This document shows positions 3,017 through 57,706 of a stretch of 64,000 nt of DNA, piece by piece. Location of the stretch: assembly GCF_900168005.1 (NCBI RefSeq), contig NZ_FUYP01000016.1, positions 1-64,000 on the forward strand, read 5' to 3'. Source of the DNA: Sphingopyxis flava. Its GTDB lineage: Bacteria; Pseudomonadota; Alphaproteobacteria; Sphingomonadales; Sphingomonadaceae. Made by a program: the position numbers and the translations under genes. How positions within the stretch are numbered: position 1 is the first letter of the stretch; every line of letters starts with the position of its first letter. Below the pieces are notes generated by a model that saw nothing but the letters and a program-made list of their open reading frames with translations, was not told the origin of the DNA and made no database searches.

Positions 3017-3280
3017 TTAGTTCGTGCGCCAATCCGTCCAGAAGGATCCCCGCATGGCGCCAAGCTCATCGTCGATAAGCTTCTCGATCTCGCCGGGATC
3101 GATATCGGTGTTCCGCGCCTGAATATCGCGGACGATTTCGCGCAGAACCGCGCGATTGACGGCTTCCTCGACGAAGCGCGAGAGATCGCCCTTCCGTCCG
3201 CCTCGCGTAGCTAGCAAGGTGCGCAGCGCAAGATCGGTCTCACGCGACACCTTCAAATTCCAGCGGGCCAGCTCGCCCAT
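3017..3280 (-). CDS. Ribbon-helix-helix antitoxin for the PIN toxin
   Basis: An 87-aa protein upstream of, and abutting, the PIN toxin gene. The N terminus (RWNLKVSRETDLALRTLLA) fits a beta strand followed by two helices, as in Arc/MetJ-type DNA-binding antitoxins. The acidic C-terminal tail (IDPGEIEKLIDDELGAM, then a Trp-containing end) is the likely toxin-binding segment. Such antitoxins normally repress their own operon. A perfect 14-base palindrome sits just downstream of the -10 element at 3300-3313 and is a good operator candidate. Start ATG 3280; no strong Shine-Dalgarno was seen. Confidence 0.82.
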   Translation of the reverse strand: MGELARWNLKVSRETDLALRTLLATRGGRKGDLSRFVEEAVNRAVLREIVRDIQARNTDIDPGEIEKLIDDELGAMRGSFWTDWRTN

Positions 3281-7913: not shown

Positions 7914-8510
7914 TCAGCTTAGGCTGCGGAAGGTGACCGACCAGCGCGGCTCGTTCATCGCGGCGATGCTATGCTCCCACGCGTTTCGGGCTTCCCCGGA
8001 AAGATGATAGGCCGAGCGCGGAGCGAGCGCGGCCTCCGCGCGCTCAAACCTTGTGCCCTTGCGCCGACGGAAGCGCATCACGGCGCGCGCGCCGAGCGAG
8101 ATTCCAATGACATGATCAAAGACAGGGCGATCCCGGTGCCAGCCGATGCCTGCACCGACGCCATATTCGATGAGCAGAAGCTGTGCGAGCGCGTCGGTCT
8201 CAAGACCTGCAAAGCGCGCGGCGCGGGCCCGCAGCGGCTCGATCCAGCCAGGGATCGGATCGCCCGGCGCAAAACGGTTGGTCTCAAAATCATAAGTCCA
8301 GCCGAAAGAGCGGGTCAGTCTTTTCCCCTCCCACCGCTGAAAACGAAATGGCGTGAGGCGGGCATCGCAAATCCGGGCAATGAGGGTGCGCTCCTCGGCC
8401 TCGCTGATGATATTTTCAGCATAGGCGAGGCCGGGAGGGCCGACGGACCCGAAAAGGTCAGCCTGGAGCGCCCCGCCTGCCCCGGATGAGGCGTCTTTCT
8501 TGATGGTCAT
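7914..8510 (-). CDS. AlkB-like 2-oxoglutarate/Fe(II) dioxygenase
   Basis: Oxidative demethylases of the AlkB superfamily remove alkyl groups from DNA/RNA bases or modify proteins using 2-oxoglutarate, O2 and Fe(II). The iron triad is visible: WHRDRPVF gives His125 and Asp127, and WEHSI gives His180. The 2-oxoglutarate-binding arginine region is RWSVTFRSL (about residues 189-195). The ALKBH-like substrate lid RFQRWEGKRLTRSFGW and the conserved NRF/PGWI region precede the core. Length (198 aa) is normal. ATG 8510 starts MTIKKD. The gene stands alone and converges with the small frame ending at 7867. Confidence 0.9.
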   Translation of the reverse strand: MTIKKDASSGAGGALQADLFGSVGPPGLAYAENIISEAEERTLIARICDARLTPFRFQRWEGKRLTRSFGWTYDFETNRFAPGDPIPGWIEPLRARAARFAGLETDALAQLLLIEYGVGAGIGWHRDRPVFDHVIGISLGARAVMRFRRRKGTRFERAEAALAPRSAYHLSGEARNAWEHSIAAMNEPRWSVTFRSLS

Positions 8511-8666
8511 GGCCGCGGGCTCCCGCGGCGATCTACGCTCGCCGCAAGGTGGCCGGGGCCGTGCCTGCTTATGAAATCGCCGCGATAAGGGGCTGCCGGA
8601 AAGTTCGCCACCATAAGAACATAATCAGAACATCCTGGGTTGCAAGGGCAGCGCCCCGGCTTCCTC

Positions 8667-47879: not shown

Positions 47880-50800
47880 TCACCGAAAGTCATGGCTGCG
47901 CACCCGCAGAAGCTCTTCATCCTCTCCGCTGAATGGCCGCGAGGCCAAGGTCCGCCCGCGCGGCGTCCAACCCGCCGGGGTGCGCGGATCGGGCCCGCCG
48001 CCGCCCCGCGCCCCATCGCCGGGGCCCGGCGCCACGGCAAAATCCATCTGCGCAATCGAGCGCAGCATTGCGTCGTGATCGATGATGCGCTCGCAGATGA
48101 TATGGATGATCTCGCCTTCCTTCTGAAGCCGCCCGCGCATCGCGATCATCGAGGCCGCCATGATTGGTCGGCGGTAGGTCTCGAATTTGTCAGGCCAGAG
48201 AATGCCGTTCGCAATGCCGGTCTCGTCCTCGATCGTGACGAACAACACGCCCTTCGCCGAGCCCGGGCGCTGACGCACGAGAATGACACCGGCGACCTCG
48301 ACATTGCGCCCATCGCGGATCGCGGCGAGATCGGCACAGCGCACGATCTTCATGGCATCAAGCTCGGCGCGCAGGAAGCTTAGCGGATGCGCGCGCAGCG
48401 AGAGCTGGGTAGTGCGATAATCTTCAACGGTCTCGCGGCCCGTCGTCATCGGCCGCAGCGCCACATCGGGTTCAGGCCCCTCGGGCGAGAAGGCCGCCTC
48501 GCGCGCATCGGCTGCCGCGAATAACGGAAGCGGCGCCTCCCCAAGCCCCCTCACCTTCCAGAGCCCCTGGCGCCGGTCCTCGCTGAGACAGGAAAAGGCG
48601 TCGGCCTCGGCGAGCCGCTCGATCGCGGCGCGCGGCACCTGCGCGCGGCGCCATAGATCCTCGACACTCTCATACATCGCGGCGCCGCGCGCCGCCGCGA
48701 TGGCGGCGCCATGGATATTGGCAAGCCCGCGCACCTGGCGAAAGCCCAGGCGCACCGCAAGGGTGCGCCCCCCGCTCGCCTCGAGCGTGCAATCCCTGTG
48801 GCTGTGATTGATCGAGACCGGACGAACCTCGACCCCGTGCTTGCGCGCGTCGGCGACGATTTGCGCGGGCGCATAAAAGCCCATCGGCTGGGCGTTAAGC
48901 AGCGCTGCGCAAAAGACGTCGGGATGATGATGCTTCATCCAGCAGGAGGCATAGGCGATCTTCGCGAAGCTCGCCGCATGGCTTTCGGGAAAGCCGTAGG
49001 AGCCGAACCCCTCGATCTGCTTGAAGGTGCGCTCGGCAAAGTCGCGCGGATACCCACGCGCGATCATGCCGCCAACGAGCTTGTCGAAGAAATGCGAGAC
49101 GCCGCCCGTGAGCTTGAAGGTCGCCATCGCGCGGCGAAGCTCGTCGGCCTCGGCGGGGGTGAAACCCGCGCCGACGATCGCGACCTTCATCGCCTGCTCC
49201 TGGAAAAGCGGAACGCCGAGCGTCTTCTCGAGCACGGCGCGAAGCTCGGCCCTGGGATATTCGGGCTTTTCCTTGCCCTCGCGGCGGCGAAGATAGGGAT
49301 GGACCATGTCGCCCTGGATCGGCCCCGGACGCACGATCGCGACCTCGATCACGAGATCGTAAAAACATCTGGGCTTGATCCGGGGCAGCATCGACATTTG
49401 CGCGCGGCTTTCGATCTGGAAGACCCCCAATGTGTCGGCCCGCTGGATCATCGCATAGACATCAGGGTCATCGTCCTGAAGATCGGCCATACCGACCGCG
49501 ATGCCCTTATGCTCGGCGAGCAGGTTGAAGGCGCGGTTCATGCAGCCGAGCATGCCGAGCCCCAGGATGTCGACCTTCATGAACTTGAGGACGTCGATAT
49601 CGTCCTTGTCCCATTCGATGATCTGCCGCGCGTCCATGCGCGCAGGCTCGATCGGCACGAGATCGTCGAGCCGTTCCTCGGTGAGCACGAAGCCGCCGGG
49701 GTGCTGCGAGAGGTGGCGGGGCGTGCCAATGAGCTGGCGCGCAAGCTCGAGCGTCAGGCGGAGGCGATAATCCTTCGGGTTGAGGTTGAGGCTTGCGATC
49801 TGTTCGTCGGTCATGCCGTCTTCCGACCAGCCCCAGACGAGGCCGGTGAGCATCTTGGTGAGGTCGCGCGGCAGACCGAGCGCTTTGCCGACCTCGGCGA
49901 CCGCGCCCTTCGTGCGATAACGGGTGACGACGGCGGTCAGGGCGGCGCGGTGCCGCCCATAGGTCTCGTAGATCCACTGGATGATTTCCTCGCGCCGCTC
50001 ATGCTCGAAATCAACGTCGATATCGGGCGGCTCCTTGCGCTCGCCCGAGACGAACCGCTCGAAGAGAAGCTCGTGCTTGATCGGATCGATCGAGGTGATG
50101 CCAAGAAGAAAGCACACGCAGCTGTTCGCCGCCGAGCCGCGCCCCTGGCAGAGGATTCCGCGCCGCCGGCTCTCGGCAACGATCGCATGGACGGTGAGGA
50201 AATAGGGCGCATAGCCAAGCTCGCCAATGAGGGCGAGCTCATGGTCGATCTGCGCGCGGTAGGCCGCGGGCACGCCGTCCAGGAACATACGCGCGGCGGC
50301 ATCCTCGGTGAGCGCGGCAAGCGCCTCCTGAGCGCTGCGCCCTTCCATCACTTCTTCATAGGGATATTGGTAGCGGATTTCGCGAAGATCAAAGCGGCAC
50401 GCCGCAGCGATATCGGCACTCGCAGCAATCGCGTCCGGGAAAAGCGCGAAGCGGCGCTCCATGTCCTGCGGCGATTTAAGCGCCCGGTCCATGAACCGCT
50501 CGCGCCGAAAACCGAGCGTGTCGATCACTTTCTTTTCGCGGATCGCGCTCATCACGTCCTGGAGCGGGCGGCGTTCGGGCGCATGATAGAGGATGTCGCC
50601 GGTCGCCACGCTGCGCACGCCGGCGCCGCGCGCAAGCGCATCGAGCGCATCGAGCCGCGCGATGTCGCCGGGACGCCGCCGGAAGGCGAGCGAGAGATAG
50701 GTATCGCGCCCGAAGATGTCGCGAAGCGCGCCGAGATCAGCCCGGAGGCGCGGGTCCGGGGCGTCGGGAAGAAGGATCGCGACGAGACCCTCGGCAGAGG

Positions 50801-51179
50801 CTGCAACATCGTCCAACGTGAGGATGCAATGGCCCTTGCCGCCGCGCGCCTTGCCAAGGCTCAGGAGCCGCGTCAGCCGCGACCAGGCGGGCCGGTCCTT
50901 CGGATAAAGGAGAAGCGCGCGGCCATCGTCCAGATCGATCCGCGATCCCGCGATGAGGCGTACGCCCGTCGCCTCCTCGCCTATAAGGCCGCGCACCACG
51001 CCTGCGACGCTGCCGCGGTCCGCGAGCCCGAGCGCCTTGTGGCCTTGCTGCGCAGCGGCAGCGAACAATTCTTCTGGCGAGGAAGCGCCGCGCAGAAAAG
51101 AGAAGTGGCTCGTCACCTGCAGCTCGACATAGGTCGTCTTCGGCGCGCTTCGCGCCGCCGGATGGCCGATCCCGCTCAT
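47880..51179 (-). CDS. dnaE2: Error-prone DNA polymerase DnaE2
   Basis: Translesion polymerase that extends past damaged bases during the SOS response; partner of ImuB and ImuA. The 1099-aa protein starts with a PHP domain ([23 protein letters not shown]) and has the polymerase palm ([46 protein letters not shown] with the acidic triad), fingers and an OB fold near residues 980-1070 ([29 protein letters not shown]). Length matches DnaE2. The start overlaps the imuB stop by four bases. It is the last gene of the operon. Confidence 0.95.
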
Positions 51180-52900
51180 CCGAACACCCCGTGCATGAAC
51201 CAGCTTAAATCACCGCTCTGCTCGTCGAGCCCATCGCCGCGCCGGAACAGCCAGAAGCGTTCGCCGGTGTCAGCTTCGACCCGGAAATAATCGCGTACTG
51301 CCCACATTTCGCGGGGCCGCCGCCACCATTCGCCATGGATGCGCTCAGGGCCATCACCCGCGACGATCCGATAGGTACGGCCGCGCCAGGCAAAGCGGCG
51401 CGGCGGATGATCAGGGAGCAAGGCCATCACGCCTTGGAGCGGCTCGGGACGCGAAAGGATGCGCACAGGGCGCGGCCACGCCGGCCACCCGGGAGGACTG
51501 GCGAGCGGCGCCGCGCGCGCGACCGCGCGCTCGGGAACGTCGCTTTCGACCGAAGCAAGCCGGAACAGCGCCGCTTCGCCCGCCCGCCCGGCGAGCTGGT
51601 CGACAAGCGGGGCAAGATCGCGCCCCTGCGCGCGCCCATCGAGCGCGGCGTCGATCATCGCGGGCGCGAGCGGCTCGACTTCGAGCGCGGCGAGCATCAT
51701 GGCCTCGATCCCGAGACCCGGCTCGATCCGGTCGATTCGGAGTCCGAAGAGGCGCCGCAGATGCGCCGCATCGCGCGTCGCACGCGCTGCACCGATGGTG
51801 ACGCGCTGTTCACCGCGATCGAGCGTCGCGCAGCGTAGCAGCGCCAAGCGCAGTCCGAGGCCCTGTCGTTCAAGCTCGGCAAGCAGATCGCGCAAGAGAT
51901 CGTCGATCACCGCGCCGATCGCCTCGGCGGTCCCGATCGGCTCGAGGAGTTGACGGCGCGCCTCGGGCGTCTCGAAAGGAACGACAGGTGCGAAGGGCTC
52001 TGGTGCGAAACCCCGCGCCTGGTCGAGCCGTTCGACCGCGCCGCGCCCGAGGCGCCGCGCGAGTGGACCGCGCGGCATCGGATAAAGATCGCCGACGCGC
52101 TCGAGACCGAAGCGCCGCGCGGCAGCGAGCGCCCCCGGTGCAAGGCGCAGCGCGGCAAGCGGCAGCGGCGCAAGGGCTTCGGCTTCCTCACCCGCACTGA
52201 GCAGCCGGATCGGCGCGCCGCCGAAGCGCGCGAGCGCGTGCGCGGCCCCCGGCGTTCCAGCGACCGCGATCCTGGCGGTGAAACCGAGGCGGGCGAGGAA
52301 GCGGCAAAGCCGCGCCGAAAAGCGCGCCTCGCCGCCGAAGAGATGCGCGGTTCCGCCAATGTCAAGCCAGAGGCCATCCTCCCCCGCCACCGCCGCACTC
52401 GGCGTCCAGTGGCGTGCAGCGTGAAGCGCAAGGCGATCGAGCCAGGCGCGATCGGCGTCCCGATTGGCATCGCGCACATCAAGATCGGCAACGAGCGCCC
52501 GCGCGTGCGCAGCTGCCATGCCGGGGGCGATGCCGAGATCGAGCGCCGCAGGGCAAGCCGCGGTCACCGTATCGCGCTGTCCGGTCCGCGCGACGAGGAT
52601 CATCGGCCGCGCGCGCGCCGCGCCCGCGTCTGCGCCGCGCCAGTCCGGTGCCGCTGCTTCAGATGCCGCGCGAGCCCAGCGCGCGCCGGGGCGCCAGCCA
52701 CCGCCGCGCGGCACCGGGCAGACGCCTGGCTGATCGTCGCACGGAGGGAGATCGAAGCGTGCGGCCGGGGGCCTCAAAACCGGTCTCGGCGCAGGCCGCG
52801 CCGCCTCAGGCGACGCGCCCGAGCGCGGGGGATGCCGCTCCGCCCGTCGCAGCCGCTCGATCGCGAGTTGCGGCAGGAAGAGCGAGGCGACCCTGATCAT
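51176..52900 (-). CDS. imuB: ImuB (Y-family-like mutagenesis protein)
   Basis: Hub protein that links DnaE2 and ImuA to the sliding clamp. It is a Y-family polymerase relative with a degraded active site. The sequence starts [22 protein letters not shown] and has the Y-family parts [40 protein letters not shown] and [17 protein letters not shown]. The terminal region carries the usual [17 protein letters not shown] motif. Length 574 aa is normal. It overlaps imuA by 95 bases at the start and dnaE2 by four at the end. Confidence 0.93.
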
Positions 52901-53594
52901 CGCACGCCTCCAGTTCGAGAGCGAAAGGCGGTCCGCCGCGCTGGCGGACGAGCTCGACGTGCCAGCGTCCGCGTCCGATCGCAGGGACCGCGAGGCGCTC
53001 TGAGGGCCGCGCTGCGATGCGCCAGCGCGTCATCGCGAGCGAGGGCGTATCGAGCGGGCAGGCGCCGACGCGGCGATGGCGCCGGTAAAGGAGCATCGGC
53101 GTCGCCCCTTCGGCGGCGGCAAGCTGCAACCGCCGCGTTGCCGTCTGATCGGCCGCCTTCACCTCGGCAACGACGCAGGCGAGCACACCGCCGCGCAGCC
53201 CATCCTCGCATATCGCAAGCAGCTCGCGGTCATCGCGCCCCTCGGCATAGAGGATCCGCTCAGGTCCAAGCCCTGCCTGTTCCAGACCGGGTGCATAAAG
53301 GTCGAAGCGCGTGAGCGCCCAGAGCACCGAAAGCCCCCGCGCGCCCGCGAAGCGGGCGGCGATCCCGGCGGCAAAAAGCGTCGCAGCCGCGTCATCGCCC
53401 CAGCTTGCCGTGGCCGCGGCGATTTCGTGGAGTCCCGCGCCATCGAGCCCGCCACCGCTCAGTCGTTCATCGAGCGGCGCGATGCCGAAAGGCAGCACCG
53501 GCCCGCGCGCGGCAGCGACGCGCGCGACCGCTTCGCGCAGGGCGGCAAGATCCCCGGTGCCGCGCCGGGACTCGAAAGGGGCTGAAATATTCAT
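52806..53594 (-). CDS. imuA: ImuA (SOS mutagenesis RecA-like protein)
   Basis: First gene of the imuA-imuB-dnaE2 cassette, 262 aa from ATG 53594. A RecA/SulA-like core is seen in LPFGIAPLDERLSGGGLDGAGLHEIAAA and LSVLWALTRFDLYAPGLEQAGLGPERILYAEGRDDRELL. The C terminus extends into imuB by 95 bases. A GTTC-N7-GTTC SOS box lies 18-32 bases upstream of the start. It is thought to recruit DnaE2 to lesions. Confidence 0.92.
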   Translation of the reverse strand: MNISAPFESRRGTGDLAALREAVARVAAARGPVLPFGIAPLDERLSGGGLDGAGLHEIAAATASWGDDAAATLFAAGIAARFAGARGLSVLWALTRFDLYAPGLEQAGLGPERILYAEGRDDRELLAICEDGLRGGVLACVVAEVKAADQTATRRLQLAAAEGATPMLLYRRHRRVGACPLDTPSLAMTRWRIAARPSERLAVPAIGRGRWHVELVRQRGGPPFALELEACDDQGRLALPAATRDRAAATGGAASPALGRVA

Positions 53595-53611
53595 AGGGCA
53601 TCGACTCAAAT

Positions 53612-53626
53612 GTTCCCTATATGTTC
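53612..53626. promoter_or_regulatory. LexA box upstream of imuA
   Basis: GTTC (53612-53615), seven bases, GTTC (53623-53626): the direct-repeat SOS box recognised by LexA of alphaproteobacteria. It lies 18 bases before the imuA start, so LexA binding would block transcription of imuA-imuB-dnaE2. Confidence 0.9.
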
Positions 53627-53719
53627 CACCGACTCCCCTCGATCGTCAAGCCGCCTGACACATCGGCTGCGGATCGTTCAGCGCCGCGTCACCTCGGCGC
53701 GTGTAAAAAATGAGGTTCG

Positions 53720-54343
53720 ATGCCCATTACCACCGATCTTTCCTGGAACGCGCTCGTGCTTTATGCTGCAGGCGCCGCACTCATTCTCCTCCTTCTCTTT
53801 CAAATCCCCTATGTCGGACGCCTCCTCCGAACGCTCCTTTCCTTCGCCTTCCTCGCTCTCGCCCTCTTGCTCCTCTTCCAACAGGCGCCCTTCGATCCTC
53901 TTCTCTCGCGCGCCGCGGCAGCGCTTGGCCGCGATCGGCAGGAGGTGGTGGGAGGCGAAGTGCGCATCCCGATGAGCCGCGACGGGCATTTCTGGGCCGA
54001 AACGCGCATCAACGGCATCAAGCGGCGCATGCTGATCGACAGCGGCGCAACAATCACCGCGCTCTCGCAAGGAACTGCGAAGGCGGCCGGCGTCGAACCC
54101 GCCGCGTCACTCGTCCCGATTCTCCTCCAGACTGCGAATGGAACGGTACGCGCCGATGCGGGCGAGATCGCACAGCTCGAGGTGGGCGGGATTGCAGCAC
54201 AGCAGCTCAAGACGGTGATCTCGCCCGGGCTCGGCGACACCGATATTTTGGGCATGAATTTTCTCTCGGCGCTCGAATCGTGGCGGGTCGAAGGCCGGAC
54301 GCTGATTCTCGTGGCCAAAGCCGGCCGTCAAATGCCGAGCTGA
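53720..54343 (+). CDS. Retropepsin-like aspartic protease (TIGR02281 type)
   Basis: A 207-aa membrane-anchored protein with two N-terminal hydrophobic helices (ALVLYAAGAALILLLLF and LLSFAFLALALLLLF), then a single retropepsin-like domain with the active-site triad in MLIDSGATITALS. ILGMNFLSAL is the second family landmark. Single-copy retropepsins work as dimers. The C terminus is in the periplasm if the topology is as predicted. It is divergent from imuA. Confidence 0.88.
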   Translation: MPITTDLSWNALVLYAAGAALILLLLFQIPYVGRLLRTLLSFAFLALALLLLFQQAPFDPLLSRAAAALGRDRQEVVGGEVRIPMSRDGHFWAETRINGIKRRMLIDSGATITALSQGTAKAAGVEPAASLVPILLQTANGTVRADAGEIAQLEVGGIAAQQLKTVISPGLGDTDILGMNFLSALESWRVEGRTLILVAKAGRQMPS

Positions 54344-54490
54344 TCGCCTAGTCCGTGCGCCGCGGCGATGTCGATCGAACGATCGAGGGCCGCGGGCACG
54401 GTGGGCACTCATGGCGGCAATCGATCCGTCGATCTTTCGCCTCGCCTGAGCAACCGTATAACCCGGCAGCCTTGCATTTGTTCCGCCCGC

Positions 54491-54949
54491 TCAGCGCCGG
54501 TCCAAAAGCGCGAGCGTCTCCTTATCGCGCTCGCCATCGAACCAGCGATCAAGCGCGGCCCCGACCAGCGGATCCCCGCTCGCCGCCTCGAACAGGGTGA
54601 GCGACGAACGAAGCTTCATGGCATCGACGGCGCCGAATAGCCCAATGGGATCGCTGTCGCCGAGACCCGCGAGCGCCGCGACGCAGGCGGCATAGCGTTT
54701 GCCAAGAAGAGGGTGCGCCAGATACGCCTCTGCTTCGGCGCGATCGGCAATCCCGTAGCGCTTCGCCATTGCGCTGTTGCCGAGCCCGGCAAGCTGCGGA
54801 AAAATGAACCACATCCAGTGCGAGCGCTTGGCACCGCACCGGATCTCGGCGAGCGCCTGCTCATAGACGCCCTCCTGCGCCGCGACAAAGCGCCCGAGCC
54901 TTCTCCCCCGCTCAAAGGGCAAGGCGTCCTTGCGCGGGCGGCTTGCCAT
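54491..54949 (-). CDS. DUF1810 family protein
   Basis: A 152-aa protein with the DUF1810 core: FVAAQEGVYEQALAEIRCGAKRSHWMWFIFPQLAGLGNSAMAKRYGI. The family is soluble and uncharacterised. ATG 54949 gives MASRPRKDALPFERG; it overlaps the end of the SRAP gene by 38 bases, so the two are probably co-expressed under the SOS box at 55567. Length fits the family. Confidence 0.85.
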   Translation of the reverse strand: MASRPRKDALPFERGRRLGRFVAAQEGVYEQALAEIRCGAKRSHWMWFIFPQLAGLGNSAMAKRYGIADRAEAEAYLAHPLLGKRYAACVAALAGLGDSDPIGLFGAVDAMKLRSSLTLFEAASGDPLVGAALDRWFDGERDKETLALLDRR

Positions 54950-55532
54950 AAACCTGCCGGACCTCAAGACTCCCCGCGGGGAGCCATGCCAGCATTTTTT
55001 CTGCGGGTACTGCAGGATCGAGCCAGTCGGCCCAGCTCTCGGGCGCGAGCGGGATAATCTGCCGGTGATGATAGGGCGCAATATCGGGCCCGGCATCCAT
55101 CGTCAGCAGGGTGAAGGCCTCGCCCTCCTCATAGCCGCGCCAGATGCCTGCCATCGCGAACCAGCGCCGGCCCTTCATGGTGAAAAGCCATTTGTCGAGG
55201 CGCTTCTGCCCGGGGTCGGCAGGATCGGTGAATTCATAAAAGCCATCGCACAGAACGAGGCAGCGGTGCGAGGCGAAGCTCCGCTTTTCCGACCGGAAAT
55301 TATAGACCGGCGCGCCCCTGGGGCCGGGCCAGCTCCAGCGCCGGTTGACAAGCTCGCCGTGCGCGCGTCCCTTGTCCGAGCTGCGCACGATCGGCGCGAT
55401 ATCGGTGATCCTGATATCCTCGCGCGCCGGGACATTGGGTAGCCCTTCGGGCGTCTCGAGCCTGATTTGCAGATCCTCGAAATCTTCAGCGATCGACGCG
55501 ATGTCGACCTCGAGACGATAGTCATTGCACAT
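54912..55532 (-). CDS. SRAP-domain protein (YedK/HMCES type)
   Basis: The SRAP catalytic Cys2 forms a thiazolidine link with abasic sites in single-stranded DNA, protecting them. ATG 55532 gives MCNDYR with Cys2 exposed after Met removal. Other active residues fit: Asn78 (VYNFRSE), Glu100 (LCDGFYEF) and His155/His156 (APYHHRQI). Length 206 aa. The gene is divergent from a second SRAP-like gene with an SOS box between the starts. It overlaps a DUF1810 gene downstream. Confidence 0.92.
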   Translation of the reverse strand: MCNDYRLEVDIASIAEDFEDLQIRLETPEGLPNVPAREDIRITDIAPIVRSSDKGRAHGELVNRRWSWPGPRGAPVYNFRSEKRSFASHRCLVLCDGFYEFTDPADPGQKRLDKWLFTMKGRRWFAMAGIWRGYEEGEAFTLLTMDAGPDIAPYHHRQIIPLAPESWADWLDPAVPAEKMLAWLPAGSLEVRQVYGKPPAQGRLAL

Positions 55533-55566
55533 GACTGGGCGTCCCCAATTGTTGCGGTGCGCCCAT

Positions 55567-55581
55567 GTTCTTGCTATGTTC
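55567..55581. promoter_or_regulatory. LexA box between the two SRAP genes
   Basis: GTTC (55567-55570), seven bases, GTTC (55578-55581): the alphaproteobacterial SOS box. It is 35 bases from the SRAP start on the left and five bases from the SRAP-like start on the right, so both divergent genes may be LexA-controlled. Confidence 0.85.
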
Positions 55582-55586
55582 CAGTA

Positions 55587-56099
55587 ATGACAACTGTGCC
55601 AACGCCTTTCGATCCCGATAATGCGAGCACCTTCGAGCGGGCGCTCGTGCGCCGCAATCCAGAAAATAGATCCGAAATTGAAATGGTCAAAGCGGTCTGG
55701 GGTTCCGATCCCCGCTTTGCGGACGGCGTCGCTTATCGCTTCTTGCGCAGCGAAGCACGCGCCTTGCCCCCACGGCGCTGCCTCATCCCCGCGAGCGAAT
55801 TCCGAATGGGATCGGGCGATCGTCGCTACCGGGCGAGCCTCGACAGCGGCAATTTCTTCTATCTTGCCGCGATCTGGGATCCGCCGCTTGCCGGCTGGCC
55901 CCTCTCTTACCGCATTCTCACCATGCCCGCCGGGGCCGACGTCCTTCCCTATCAGTCGCGCCACGGCGTCGTCATCCAGCGACGCGATGTGATGCACTGG
56001 CTCGACGGCACGCTACCAGGCGATATCCTCTTCGCCGAGCCACCGCGCCACAGCTTTTTTGTCGAGCGCGTGCCCGCGCCATGCGCCTTGCCGCTCTAA
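55587..56099 (+). CDS. SRAP-like protein lacking catalytic residues
   Basis: A 170-aa protein from ATG 55587 whose core follows the SRAP fold: LPPRRCLIPASEFRM, FFYLAAIWDPPLAGWPLSYRILTMPAG, and VLPYQSRHGVVIQRRDVMHWLDG. The expected Met-Cys start is replaced by MTTVPTP; the Asn of the active site is Arg51; the His position is Gln123; only the Glu (Glu71) is kept. It is therefore unlikely to crosslink abasic sites. It may bind DNA or regulate its paralogue. It has its own SOS box. Confidence 0.75.
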   Translation: MTTVPTPFDPDNASTFERALVRRNPENRSEIEMVKAVWGSDPRFADGVAYRFLRSEARALPPRRCLIPASEFRMGSGDRRYRASLDSGNFFYLAAIWDPPLAGWPLSYRILTMPAGADVLPYQSRHGVVIQRRDVMHWLDGTLPGDILFAEPPRHSFFVERVPAPCALPL

Positions 56100-56202
56100 A
56101 CCAAAAGGCGCGCACCTGGGGGATGCAGGCGAGAGATTTCGCCTCGGCGCCCCTCTTTTCCCTGCTGTTGAGACAAGGTCCGGGCTGATCGGGCGAGTCG
56201 CC

Positions 56203-56385
56203 TCAGCGATCCTTCAGATACGCGCGGACCTTGTCCGCCGAGCTACCCACGGCATCCACCGCTTCGCGAAGTTCCTGCTCGCTTACGCCCAGCGCCTGCG
56301 TCCAGTCGCGCACTTCATAATCTTCGCTGAGGCTGATCCGGTCGCGGTCGGGAGAACCGACATTCCTCCTGTCGTCGCTTGCCAT
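56203..56385 (-). CDS. DUF3606 family protein
   Basis: A 60-aa protein from ATG 56385 with AAGGAG nine bases upstream. The sequence SSDDRRN-like start, DRISLSEDYEVRDWTQALGV and SEQELREAVDAVGSSADKVRAYL are the DUF3606 pattern. The family is small, helical and uncharacterised. The gene lies between the SRAP-like gene and exonuclease III. Confidence 0.85.
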   Translation of the reverse strand: MASDDRRNVGSPDRDRISLSEDYEVRDWTQALGVSEQELREAVDAVGSSADKVRAYLKDR

Positions 56386-56528
56386 TGTCCATCTCCTTGC
56401 GGAAGGTAACGCCCCGCGCATTCGCAGGTTGCGCGCGCGGACATATGGCCCGCGGAACAAAAGGCGCCGATGGGTGGTCTTCGGACCATGACCTTCAACG
56501 CCCCGCCCGCACAGGATTGTCCGGCCTC

Positions 56529-57332
56529 ATGAAGATCGCCACCTACAATGTGAACGGCATTGGCGGGCGTCTTCCTGTTCTGCTGCGATGGCTCGCGCTC
56601 GCCAAGCCCGACATCCTTTGCCTGCAGGAGCTGAAGGCACCGCAGGAGAAATTTCCGGAGAATGCGATCCGAGATGCAGGTTATGACGTCATCTGGCACG
56701 GCGAGAGCCGCTGGAACGGCGTTGCGATACTGAGCCGGGTCGGCGATATTCACGAGACGCGCCGCGGCCTGCCCGGCGATCCGGCCGATGAACAAAGCCG
56801 CTATATCGAGGCCGCGGTCGGCGGGATCCTCATTGCCTGCATCTATCTTCCCAACGGCAATCCCTGGCCGGGTCAAAAGTTCGAATACAAGCTGAAGTGG
56901 ATGGCCCGCCTCGATGCCCATCTAAAGGCGCTCTTCGATCTCGAGGCGCCCGTGATTGTGTGCGGCGATTATAACGTCATTCCCGCCGATCTCGACGTCT
57001 ACAAGCCCGAAAACTGGACGAAGGACGCGCTGTTTGCTCCCGAAGCAAGAGCCGCCTATCAAGGCTATCTGGACCAGGGTTGGACCGACGCGATCCGTAC
57101 TCTCCATCCGGGCGCACGCATCTACAGCTTCTGGGCCTATTGGCGCCGCTCGTTCGAACGCGGCGCCGGGATCCGCATCGACCACCTTCTGCTCAACACG
57201 GCAGCCAGGAAACGGCTCAGCGCCGCAGGCGTAGACACGCGGCCGCGCGGCTGGGAGAGGTCGAGCGACCATGCGCCGGCCTGGATCGAACTGGCCGACA
57301 GGCCGGTGCGGGGCCGAAAGGCAAGGCCATGA
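56529..57332 (+). CDS. xth: Exonuclease III (Xth family)
   Basis: AP endonuclease/3'-5' exonuclease that processes abasic sites and damaged 3' ends in base excision repair. ATG 56529 gives MKIATYNVNGIGGRLP. Motifs are Asn7, CLQELKAP (catalytic Glu), IVCGDYNVIPADLDVY (Asp and Asn) and the C-terminal SSDHAPAWIEL with the catalytic His. Length 267 aa. Its stop overlaps the next gene by four bases. Confidence 0.93.
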   Translation: MKIATYNVNGIGGRLPVLLRWLALAKPDILCLQELKAPQEKFPENAIRDAGYDVIWHGESRWNGVAILSRVGDIHETRRGLPGDPADEQSRYIEAAVGGILIACIYLPNGNPWPGQKFEYKLKWMARLDAHLKALFDLEAPVIVCGDYNVIPADLDVYKPENWTKDALFAPEARAAYQGYLDQGWTDAIRTLHPGARIYSFWAYWRRSFERGAGIRIDHLLLNTAARKRLSAAGVDTRPRGWERSSDHAPAWIELADRPVRGRKARP

Positions 57333-57706
57333 GCGGCGTGACCACCGGCTGGAAGCTTCCCGAACGAGACCGCGAGGCGCTGCTGAAGCGCTTTCCTCCG
57401 CGCTACGCAGCGCTTGTGGCCGACCATGTCACACTGCGCTTCGGGGCGGATGAAGAGGCGTCGCTCCCCGACGATCGATGCGGCGAGGTCGTGGGCCGGA
57501 GCGACGATGGCGAAGGCGTCGAAGCGCTGGTCGTGCGCATTGCCGGGAAGACCGACCGCGGCGATGGCAGCCATTATCACATCAGCTGGTCGCTTGGCCC
57601 GGGACGGCGGGCGAAAGAAAGCAACGATGTGATCGCGGCGCGAGGCTGGTCCGAGATTGAGCCGCCCATCGCGATCGCGCTTGAACCTGCGCGCTGGAGG
57701 AATTGA
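57329..57706 (+). CDS. Conserved-looking 125-aa protein, possibly 2H phosphoesterase
   Basis: The start overlaps the xth stop (ATGA), so it is translationally coupled to exonuclease III. The product has two H-x-T/S-x motifs about seventy residues apart (ADHVTLRFG and HYHISWSL). Two such motifs are the hallmark of the 2H phosphoesterase superfamily, which acts on cyclic phosphate or 2'-5' bonds. I do not see other family landmarks, so this is a suggestion. A role in nucleic-acid end processing with exonuclease III would fit. Confidence 0.5.
   Translation: MSGVTTGWKLPERDREALLKRFPPRYAALVADHVTLRFGADEEASLPDDRCGEVVGRSDDGEGVEALVVRIAGKTDRGDGSHYHISWSLGPGRRAKESNDVIAARGWSEIEPPIAIALEPARWRN

Follow-up and report, generated by a model that had tools for sequence, protein, structure and literature searches.

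In the window, i.e., the whole 64,000-nucleotide stretch of Sphingopyxis flava DNA analysed here, two divergent genes of the SRAP family face away from each other with their start codons 54 bp apart. The minus-strand gene (A) carries the catalytic residues of the family, and the plus-strand gene (B) appears to have lost them. These genes and the features around them are as follows.

7914 to 8510, minus strand: alkB-like gene (2OG-Fe(II) oxygenase; PF13532, 54.2 bits)
8617 to 8631, minus strand: third LexA-type box, GTTCTGATTATGTTC, 106 nt upstream of the alkB-like start
47880 to 51179, minus strand: dnaE2-like gene (error-prone polymerase), from annotated homologues
51176 to 52900, minus strand: imuB-like gene (Y-family polymerase relative), from an annotated homologue
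52806 to 53609, minus strand: imuA-like gene, the first of imuA-imuB-dnaE2, from annotated homologues
53612 to 53626, plus strand: second LexA-type box, GTTCCCTATATGTTC, at the imuA start
54491 to 54949, minus strand: DUF1810 gene (PF08837, 176.2 bits), overlapping the 3' end of A
54912 to 55532, minus strand: A, live SRAP gene, 206 aa (PF02586, 78.8 bits), with Cys2, Asn78, Glu100, and His155
55552 to 55557, plus strand: -35-like hexamer TTGCGG, 17 nt upstream of the -10-like hexamer
55567 to 55581, plus strand: LexA-type box, GTTCTTGCTATGTTC, 5 nt upstream of the B start codon
55575 to 55580, plus strand: -10-like hexamer TATGTT, within the box
55587 to 56099, plus strand: B, putatively dead SRAP paralogue, 170 aa (PF02586, 34.3 bits; cut-off 27.1), from profile comparison and alignments

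A sequence-only reading of this DNA had proposed back-to-back SRAP genes around a GTTC-N7-GTTC box, and this arrangement was confirmed, with the box inside the 54-bp spacer and both genes scoring above the Pfam cut-off for PF02586 (SRAP). The genome of the window has six SRAP-family matches above that cut-off, B being the weakest. When the A and B profiles were compared with hhalign, a probability of 99.2 and an E-value of 2.8e-19 were obtained over 153 columns, and all 21 B homologues scanned matched PF02586 at E 0.01. A PDB sequence search with B alone retrieved no match, and a search with the B profile retrieved weak matches only, the best being HMCES (E 0.024). AlphaFold models from shallow alignments (21 sequences for B, 19 for A) had mean pLDDT values of 42.4 for B and 35.7 for A. 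What supports the SRAP fold proposed for B is thus the sequence profiles and not the structure models.

Residues of A and B were matched with hhalign and MAFFT so that the R-S-E block and the R-C-L block line up, the latter being ungapped in both, and B was aligned to YedK, whose sequence was taken from the E. coli genome record. The first approximately 28 residues of A have no counterpart in B, and B residue 17 pairs with A residue 45. In B, Cys2 is absent, and the positions of YedK Asn75, Glu105, and His160 are occupied by Phe52, Met74, and Gln123, respectively. The four catalytic residues that had been read in A were all borne out. For B, the sequence-only reading was right that the N-terminal Cys is missing and that Gln replaces His, but it had placed an Arg at the Asn position, where we find Phe52 (Arg51 is its neighbour), and it had listed too few losses, as the Glu position and the first approximately 28 residues are gone too. 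The motif SEF was considered as a retained catalytic Glu in B and rejected, as Met stands at that position in the ungapped RCL block; B Glu71 aligns with a Gly of A. No alternative start yields a Met-Cys N-terminus for B; the upstream frame crosses the LexA-type box and is unconserved in relatives, which excludes the shifted start that had been named as one of two ways to overturn a dead B. By the alignment with YedK, B Arg54 and Arg125 occupy the positions of YedK Arg77 and Arg162, two arginines that we take to be DNA contacts. A literature search for the DNA-contact arginines of HMCES gave nothing usable.

The same losses extend to the relatives of B. Among distinct proteins 120 aa or longer, Cys2 is kept in 75/76 A-type proteins against 0/65 B proteins, the catalytic Asn in 76/76 against 1/65, the Glu in 75/76 against 0/65, and the His in 76/76 against 10/65. 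All four positions are lost in the window's B and in 54 of the 65 distinct B proteins, while the other 11 keep a single one (His in ten rhizobial-type B, Asn in L136), and both arginines are kept in all 65. The description of B as catalytically dead is, on these alignments, supported and extended to most of its family. Judging by the few B proteins that still have His or Asn, Cys2 and Glu were probably the first to go. An alignment of the window's B with those of 20 of 34 loci (excluding the broken L066, L067-L069 as truncated, and all rows identical or nearly so) has 43 invariant columns among its 21 proteins and no conserved nucleophile at the N-terminus; the corresponding A alignment is made up of the window's A and those of 18 loci. 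In B, Glu71, which precedes the lost Glu by three residues, is near-invariant, with Ala in L061 and Asp in L054 instead. Over 25 loci, B has a median dN/dS of 0.259 in 238 pairs, compared with 0.158 in 249 pairs for A; these values are rough given the high dS. The pairwise identities of A and B correlate with r 0.85, as is partly expected from shared ancestry. By these ratios, B is under purifying selection, and the median for B led us to reject the reading of B as a pseudogene.

A search for the pair in other Sphingomonadales, which had been suggested as a check, showed that the live-dead pairing recurs in related bacteria. We counted 62 distinct B segments (fragments included), of which 54 have a divergent A within 400 bp together with the box, three have the box without a divergent A, one has a divergent A without the box, and four have neither; the counted loci are related, and these counts are not independent events. 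Pairs with the box were seen in Sphingomonadaceae and on rhizobial plasmids, i.e., in at least two orders. In a 396-genome sample of the order, the B profile had matches in 26 genomes at E 1e-15; these fall in a single family and in 7 of 84 genera, although at least three of the 26 (G013, G289, and G408) are C (see below) or A cross-matches; the A profile matched 49/396 genomes at 1e-40. In a class-wide sample, B-profile matches at 1e-12 were found in 37/385 genomes, and the 29 loci compared besides the window comprise two new A/B pairs (L135 and L136) and 27 loci resembling ordinary Cys-bearing SRAPs, one of which (L144) has no standard start before the Cys. Plasmid records matching B at 1e-5 numbered 119, 79 of them from Sinorhizobium or Rhizobium, and some may be A cross-matches. 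Among ten rhizobial-type plasmid loci, seven have the A/B pair and the box (L101, L171, L172, L173, L175, L176, and L177), two carry only B (L102 with the box, L174 without it), and L178 is A-like. A search of phage records at E 0.001 returned no matches.

Departures from the paired arrangement take several forms. B stands without an adjoining A in Rhizobium NXC14, where the A profile matches only B itself on the plasmid, and on a Mesorhizobium plasmid, at a locus also without the box. Three loci (L067-L069) share one 5'-truncated B and have no A, and L063 keeps just the start of A. A occurs without B at L112, A and the box without B at L127, and the pair without the box at L136. Besides the truncated copies, B is broken in frame at L066 and split in one genome (L093/L098). 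A further B copy, in fragments, lies downstream of an intact pair in L058 (6925-7254). In Sphingobium fuliginis, an Xre/MbcA/ParS-type antitoxin gene and a RES-domain gene lie between A and B (L059, 2706-4000). Two Nostoc-labelled contigs (L051 and L052) carry a Sphingopyxis-like A/B-imuA locus, probably through assembly contamination.

Weaker matches to B (about 35%) make up a second putatively dead family, C. At 14/14 C loci, in 12 distinct places (L022-L029, L034-L036, L094, L096, and L100), the order is the box, a Cys-rich zinc-ribbon-like gene, C, and a Cys2 SRAP; the C gene is broken in L029, and the box of L094 has the looser GTTCN7GTTC form. That the motifs of the Cys-rich gene are zinc-ribbon-like is our reading, and the stretch scanned gave no Pfam match. 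All four catalytic positions are lost in 10/10 C proteins, none of which has Cys as its second residue (0/10); the second arginine is kept in 10/10, and the first is Lys in 9. One C protein scanned against PF02586 scored 24.2 bits (E 2.9e-5), which is below the cut-off, so that the placing of C rests on the alignment and the tree. In a tree of 43 hand-chosen rows, B and C group together in a clade (99/95), which A joins next (98/94; midpoint root, used for drawing), and the clade persists (99/96) when only core columns are used, with the N-terminal columns and YedK taken out. The genome of the window holds another SRAP gene (L004 1486-2082, contig C44) whose product has Thr in place of Cys2, no catalytic Asn or Glu, and no second arginine but keeps the N-terminal region. 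L004, on a long branch, falls outside B+C (AU p 0.0003), and a common origin for every dead SRAP was therefore rejected. Since B and C form one clade that excludes L004, the phylogeny makes it probable that the active site was lost once, before the B/C split, and the dead lineage probably came later to adjoin two different live SRAPs.

As for the control of the pair, we take GTTCN7GTTC to be the alphaproteobacterial LexA box. On either strand, this pattern turned up in 55 of 20000 sequences made by shuffling the bases of the window's 54-bp spacer. Over the 64-kb window, it is not rare (3 observed against 1.59 expected, with 24/100 shuffles reaching 3), and the three sites lie at imuA, between A and B, and upstream of the alkB-like gene. 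The longer pattern GTTCN4TATGTTC has nine sites in the 4.16-Mb genome, and its reverse has none; by ORF reading, others among them lie upstream of a second ImuA-like gene, an RmuC-like gene, a GST gene, an EgtB-like gene, and others. We know of no SOS membership for the GST, the EgtB-like, and further such genes. The box is present in 20/20 distinct A-B spacers, taken from the window and the 34-locus set with the 1295-bp spacer of L059 left out; in 18/20 it ends 5 nt upstream of the B start, and its TATGTTC is invariant. A TTG stands at the exact -35 offset in 53/95 distinct box regions of all kinds, and no other offset tried has it in more than 10. A promoter pattern TTG-N3-N17-TATGTT thus overlies the box and is aimed at B, and LexA, as judged from these motifs, would sit on the B-directed promoter. 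Given the -10 position inside the box, the B mRNA is probably leaderless.

The relation of A to this box is less direct, and that A shares it is an inference. A promoter scan of 55400-55700 gave as its sole match 55690-55663 on the minus strand, inside B and aimed at A, which raises the possibility that A transcription has a start of its own, outside and upstream of the box; the same scan reported no promoter for B, whose hexamers are below its threshold. The box accompanies 55/56 A-type genes with B and 1/13 A-type genes without B nearby, the 13 including distant relatives as well as the A of L059, which was counted as without B (B is 1.3 kb away). An Rfam scan of 53000-57500 yielded nothing at gathering scores.

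Published expression data bear on the claim that B is induced together with A. In Sphingopyxis granuli TFA grown without oxygen (PMC6472365), lexA and recA each rise 6-fold, imuABdnaE2 (3201-3199) 11 to 12-fold, and both 3204-3205, described as "SRAP domain containing protein and alkB", and 2555-2550, described as "SRAP domain containing proteins", 8 to 10-fold. Since gene order and strands fit dnaE2-imuB-imuA-DUF1810-A-B-alkB, SGRAN_3204 is probably B, and 2555-2550 may be a C operon. However, 3203, the expected A, is absent from the table of selected genes in that study (PMC6472365), which speaks against co-induction of A. The claim of joint induction therefore stands in part: the box accompanies the pair, and the S. 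granuli SRAP-alkB unit, whose SRAP should be B by gene order, is listed as SOS-induced, but the expected A is missing from the table and the promoter points to B.

As far as the contigs reach, DUF1810 is near A in 26/34 neighbourhoods and imuA in 23/34. The overlapping DUF1810 gene and A form a probable operon in the window; as a usual neighbour of A, this family of unknown function may belong to the same pathway. Among proteins of at least 140 aa, an alkB gene lies behind B on the same strand in 23/58 distinct B. On several rhizobial plasmids, dinB is directly next to B, and in NXC14 and p42f imuAB-dnaE2 is also nearby. The alkB-like gene of the window lies 47 kb from B and has a LexA-type box of its own.

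The recurrence of a live gene paired with a dead one suggests that the dead copy has its own job in DNA repair. The regulator or decoy proposed in the sequence-only reading would be one among several roles that B may have. We give about an even chance to the following reading: B is an SOS-controlled, non-crosslinking, DNA-binding SRAP that acts at lesions shielded by A and either tempers the shielding or leaves the sites to AlkB and ImuAB-DnaE2. In work on YedK (PMC9436759), Cys2 is required for the crosslink, Glu105 is next in importance, H160Q is 10-fold slower, and Asn75 is minor for internal abasic sites. Since rapid crosslinking by YedK needs Cys2, Glu105, and His160, B, whose N-terminal nucleophile and acid-base residues are gone, should be unable to form the thiazolidine DNA-protein crosslink; A is predicted to form the covalent abasic-site crosslink. 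The retained part of the SRAP fold, with its two arginines, suggests that B still binds DNA, presumably single-stranded or abasic DNA, non-covalently where A crosslinks. There it would temper covalent shielding or hand the lesion to the ImuAB-DnaE2 mutasome or to AlkB (DinB in rhizobia). HMCES crosslinks are thought to keep translesion polymerases off abasic sites (PMC9436759), and a role of HMCES in end joining requires DNA binding and not crosslinking (PMC10250235). A bolder version, which we regard as possible but doubtful, is that the SOS response in many alphaproteobacteria includes an anti-shield. The dead SRAP would either compete with the covalent shield formed by SRAP at abasic sites or release it, giving access to AlkB, DinB, or ImuAB-DnaE2; the ratio of live to dead would tune shielding against mutagenic bypass, and B and C would belong to a single ancient dead lineage that pairs with two live SRAPs.

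B could instead be a regulator of A at the protein level, in the manner of the prozyme partners of trypanosome enzymes: an inactive subunit whose binding would activate, inhibit, or stabilise A. This strikes us as unlikely: we take SRAP proteins to act as monomers, B stands without an adjoining A at some loci, and C adjoins another live SRAP lineage. Nevertheless, dead and live genes stay face to face across orders, the correlated identities of A and B would fit such a partnership (shared ancestry contributes to them), and other families of enzymes offer precedents for activation by a dead paralogue (PMC5201418 and PMC3663545). The same low probability goes to B as an adaptor for its neighbours, unrelated to A, that docks AlkB, ImuB/DnaE2, or DinB on damaged DNA. 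The frequent alkB behind B points that way, as do the rhizobial plasmids that keep B beside dinB, and in two cases near imuAB-dnaE2, even without A; ImuA and ImuB at the same locus have themselves been described as inactive paralogues (PMC3765255). However, alkB and dinB differ by lineage, while a divergent A lies beside 55/62 distinct B segments.

Two further explanations concern B by itself. That it has gained a new catalytic activity through other residues, such as Glu71, would agree with its strong conservation and with the caution about migrated catalytic residues in a pseudoenzyme review (PMC10211241). We consider it very improbable, as YedK lyase activity without Cys2 depends on the very Glu that B has lost (PMC9436759), the SRAP nucleophile segment is absent with no conserved N-terminal nucleophile in its place, and Glu71 itself is replaced at two loci. 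Least credible of all is a decaying copy without function; the broken copies at L066, L067-L069, and L093/L098 and the fragments in L058 do show that B can decay, but purifying selection, the conserved promoter and box, and a spread over orders and plasmids all argue against it.

Returning to B as a non-crosslinking DNA-binding SRAP, its closest parallels among known systems are partial ones. ImuA and ImuB have folds unrelated to SRAP, and they are polymerase accessories. Like B, they are SOS-linked inactive paralogues of DNA enzymes, encoded nearby (PMC3765255). The trypanosome prozyme is an inactive paralogue retained with its active counterpart, as B is with A, but it belongs to another enzyme family with another chemistry. 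With the SRAP family itself (YedK of E. coli, HMCES of animals), B shares the domain, the RSE and RCL blocks, the two arginines, and the imuA-imuB-dnaE2 neighbourhood that has been described for SRAP genes (Aravind et al. 2013, PMC3765255). The same paper describes Cys2 as "absolutely conserved" and as invariably the second residue, whereas B lacks the N-terminal segment, Cys2, Asn, Glu, and His. In the literature searched, from which subscription journals were mostly absent and where some sources were available only in part, neither a dead SRAP family nor a live-dead pairing was described, which agrees with the earlier remark that no role had been described for the dead paralogue.

An SRAP lineage in at least two orders has dropped the "absolutely conserved" Cys2 (PMC3765255) along with most or all of the other active-site residues, yet it remains associated with a LexA-type box, a live SRAP gene, and genes for error-prone polymerases. 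B would be a natural case in which DNA recognition by an SRAP is uncoupled from crosslinking, and whether a dead SRAP shifts the balance from shielding to mutagenic bypass becomes a testable question. There is also a consequence for annotation, since automatic pipelines give crosslinking and peptidase functions to proteins without the required residues. The B proteins of L103 and L171, for instance, are auto-annotated with "protein-DNA covalent cross-linking" despite missing all or most of the catalytic residues.
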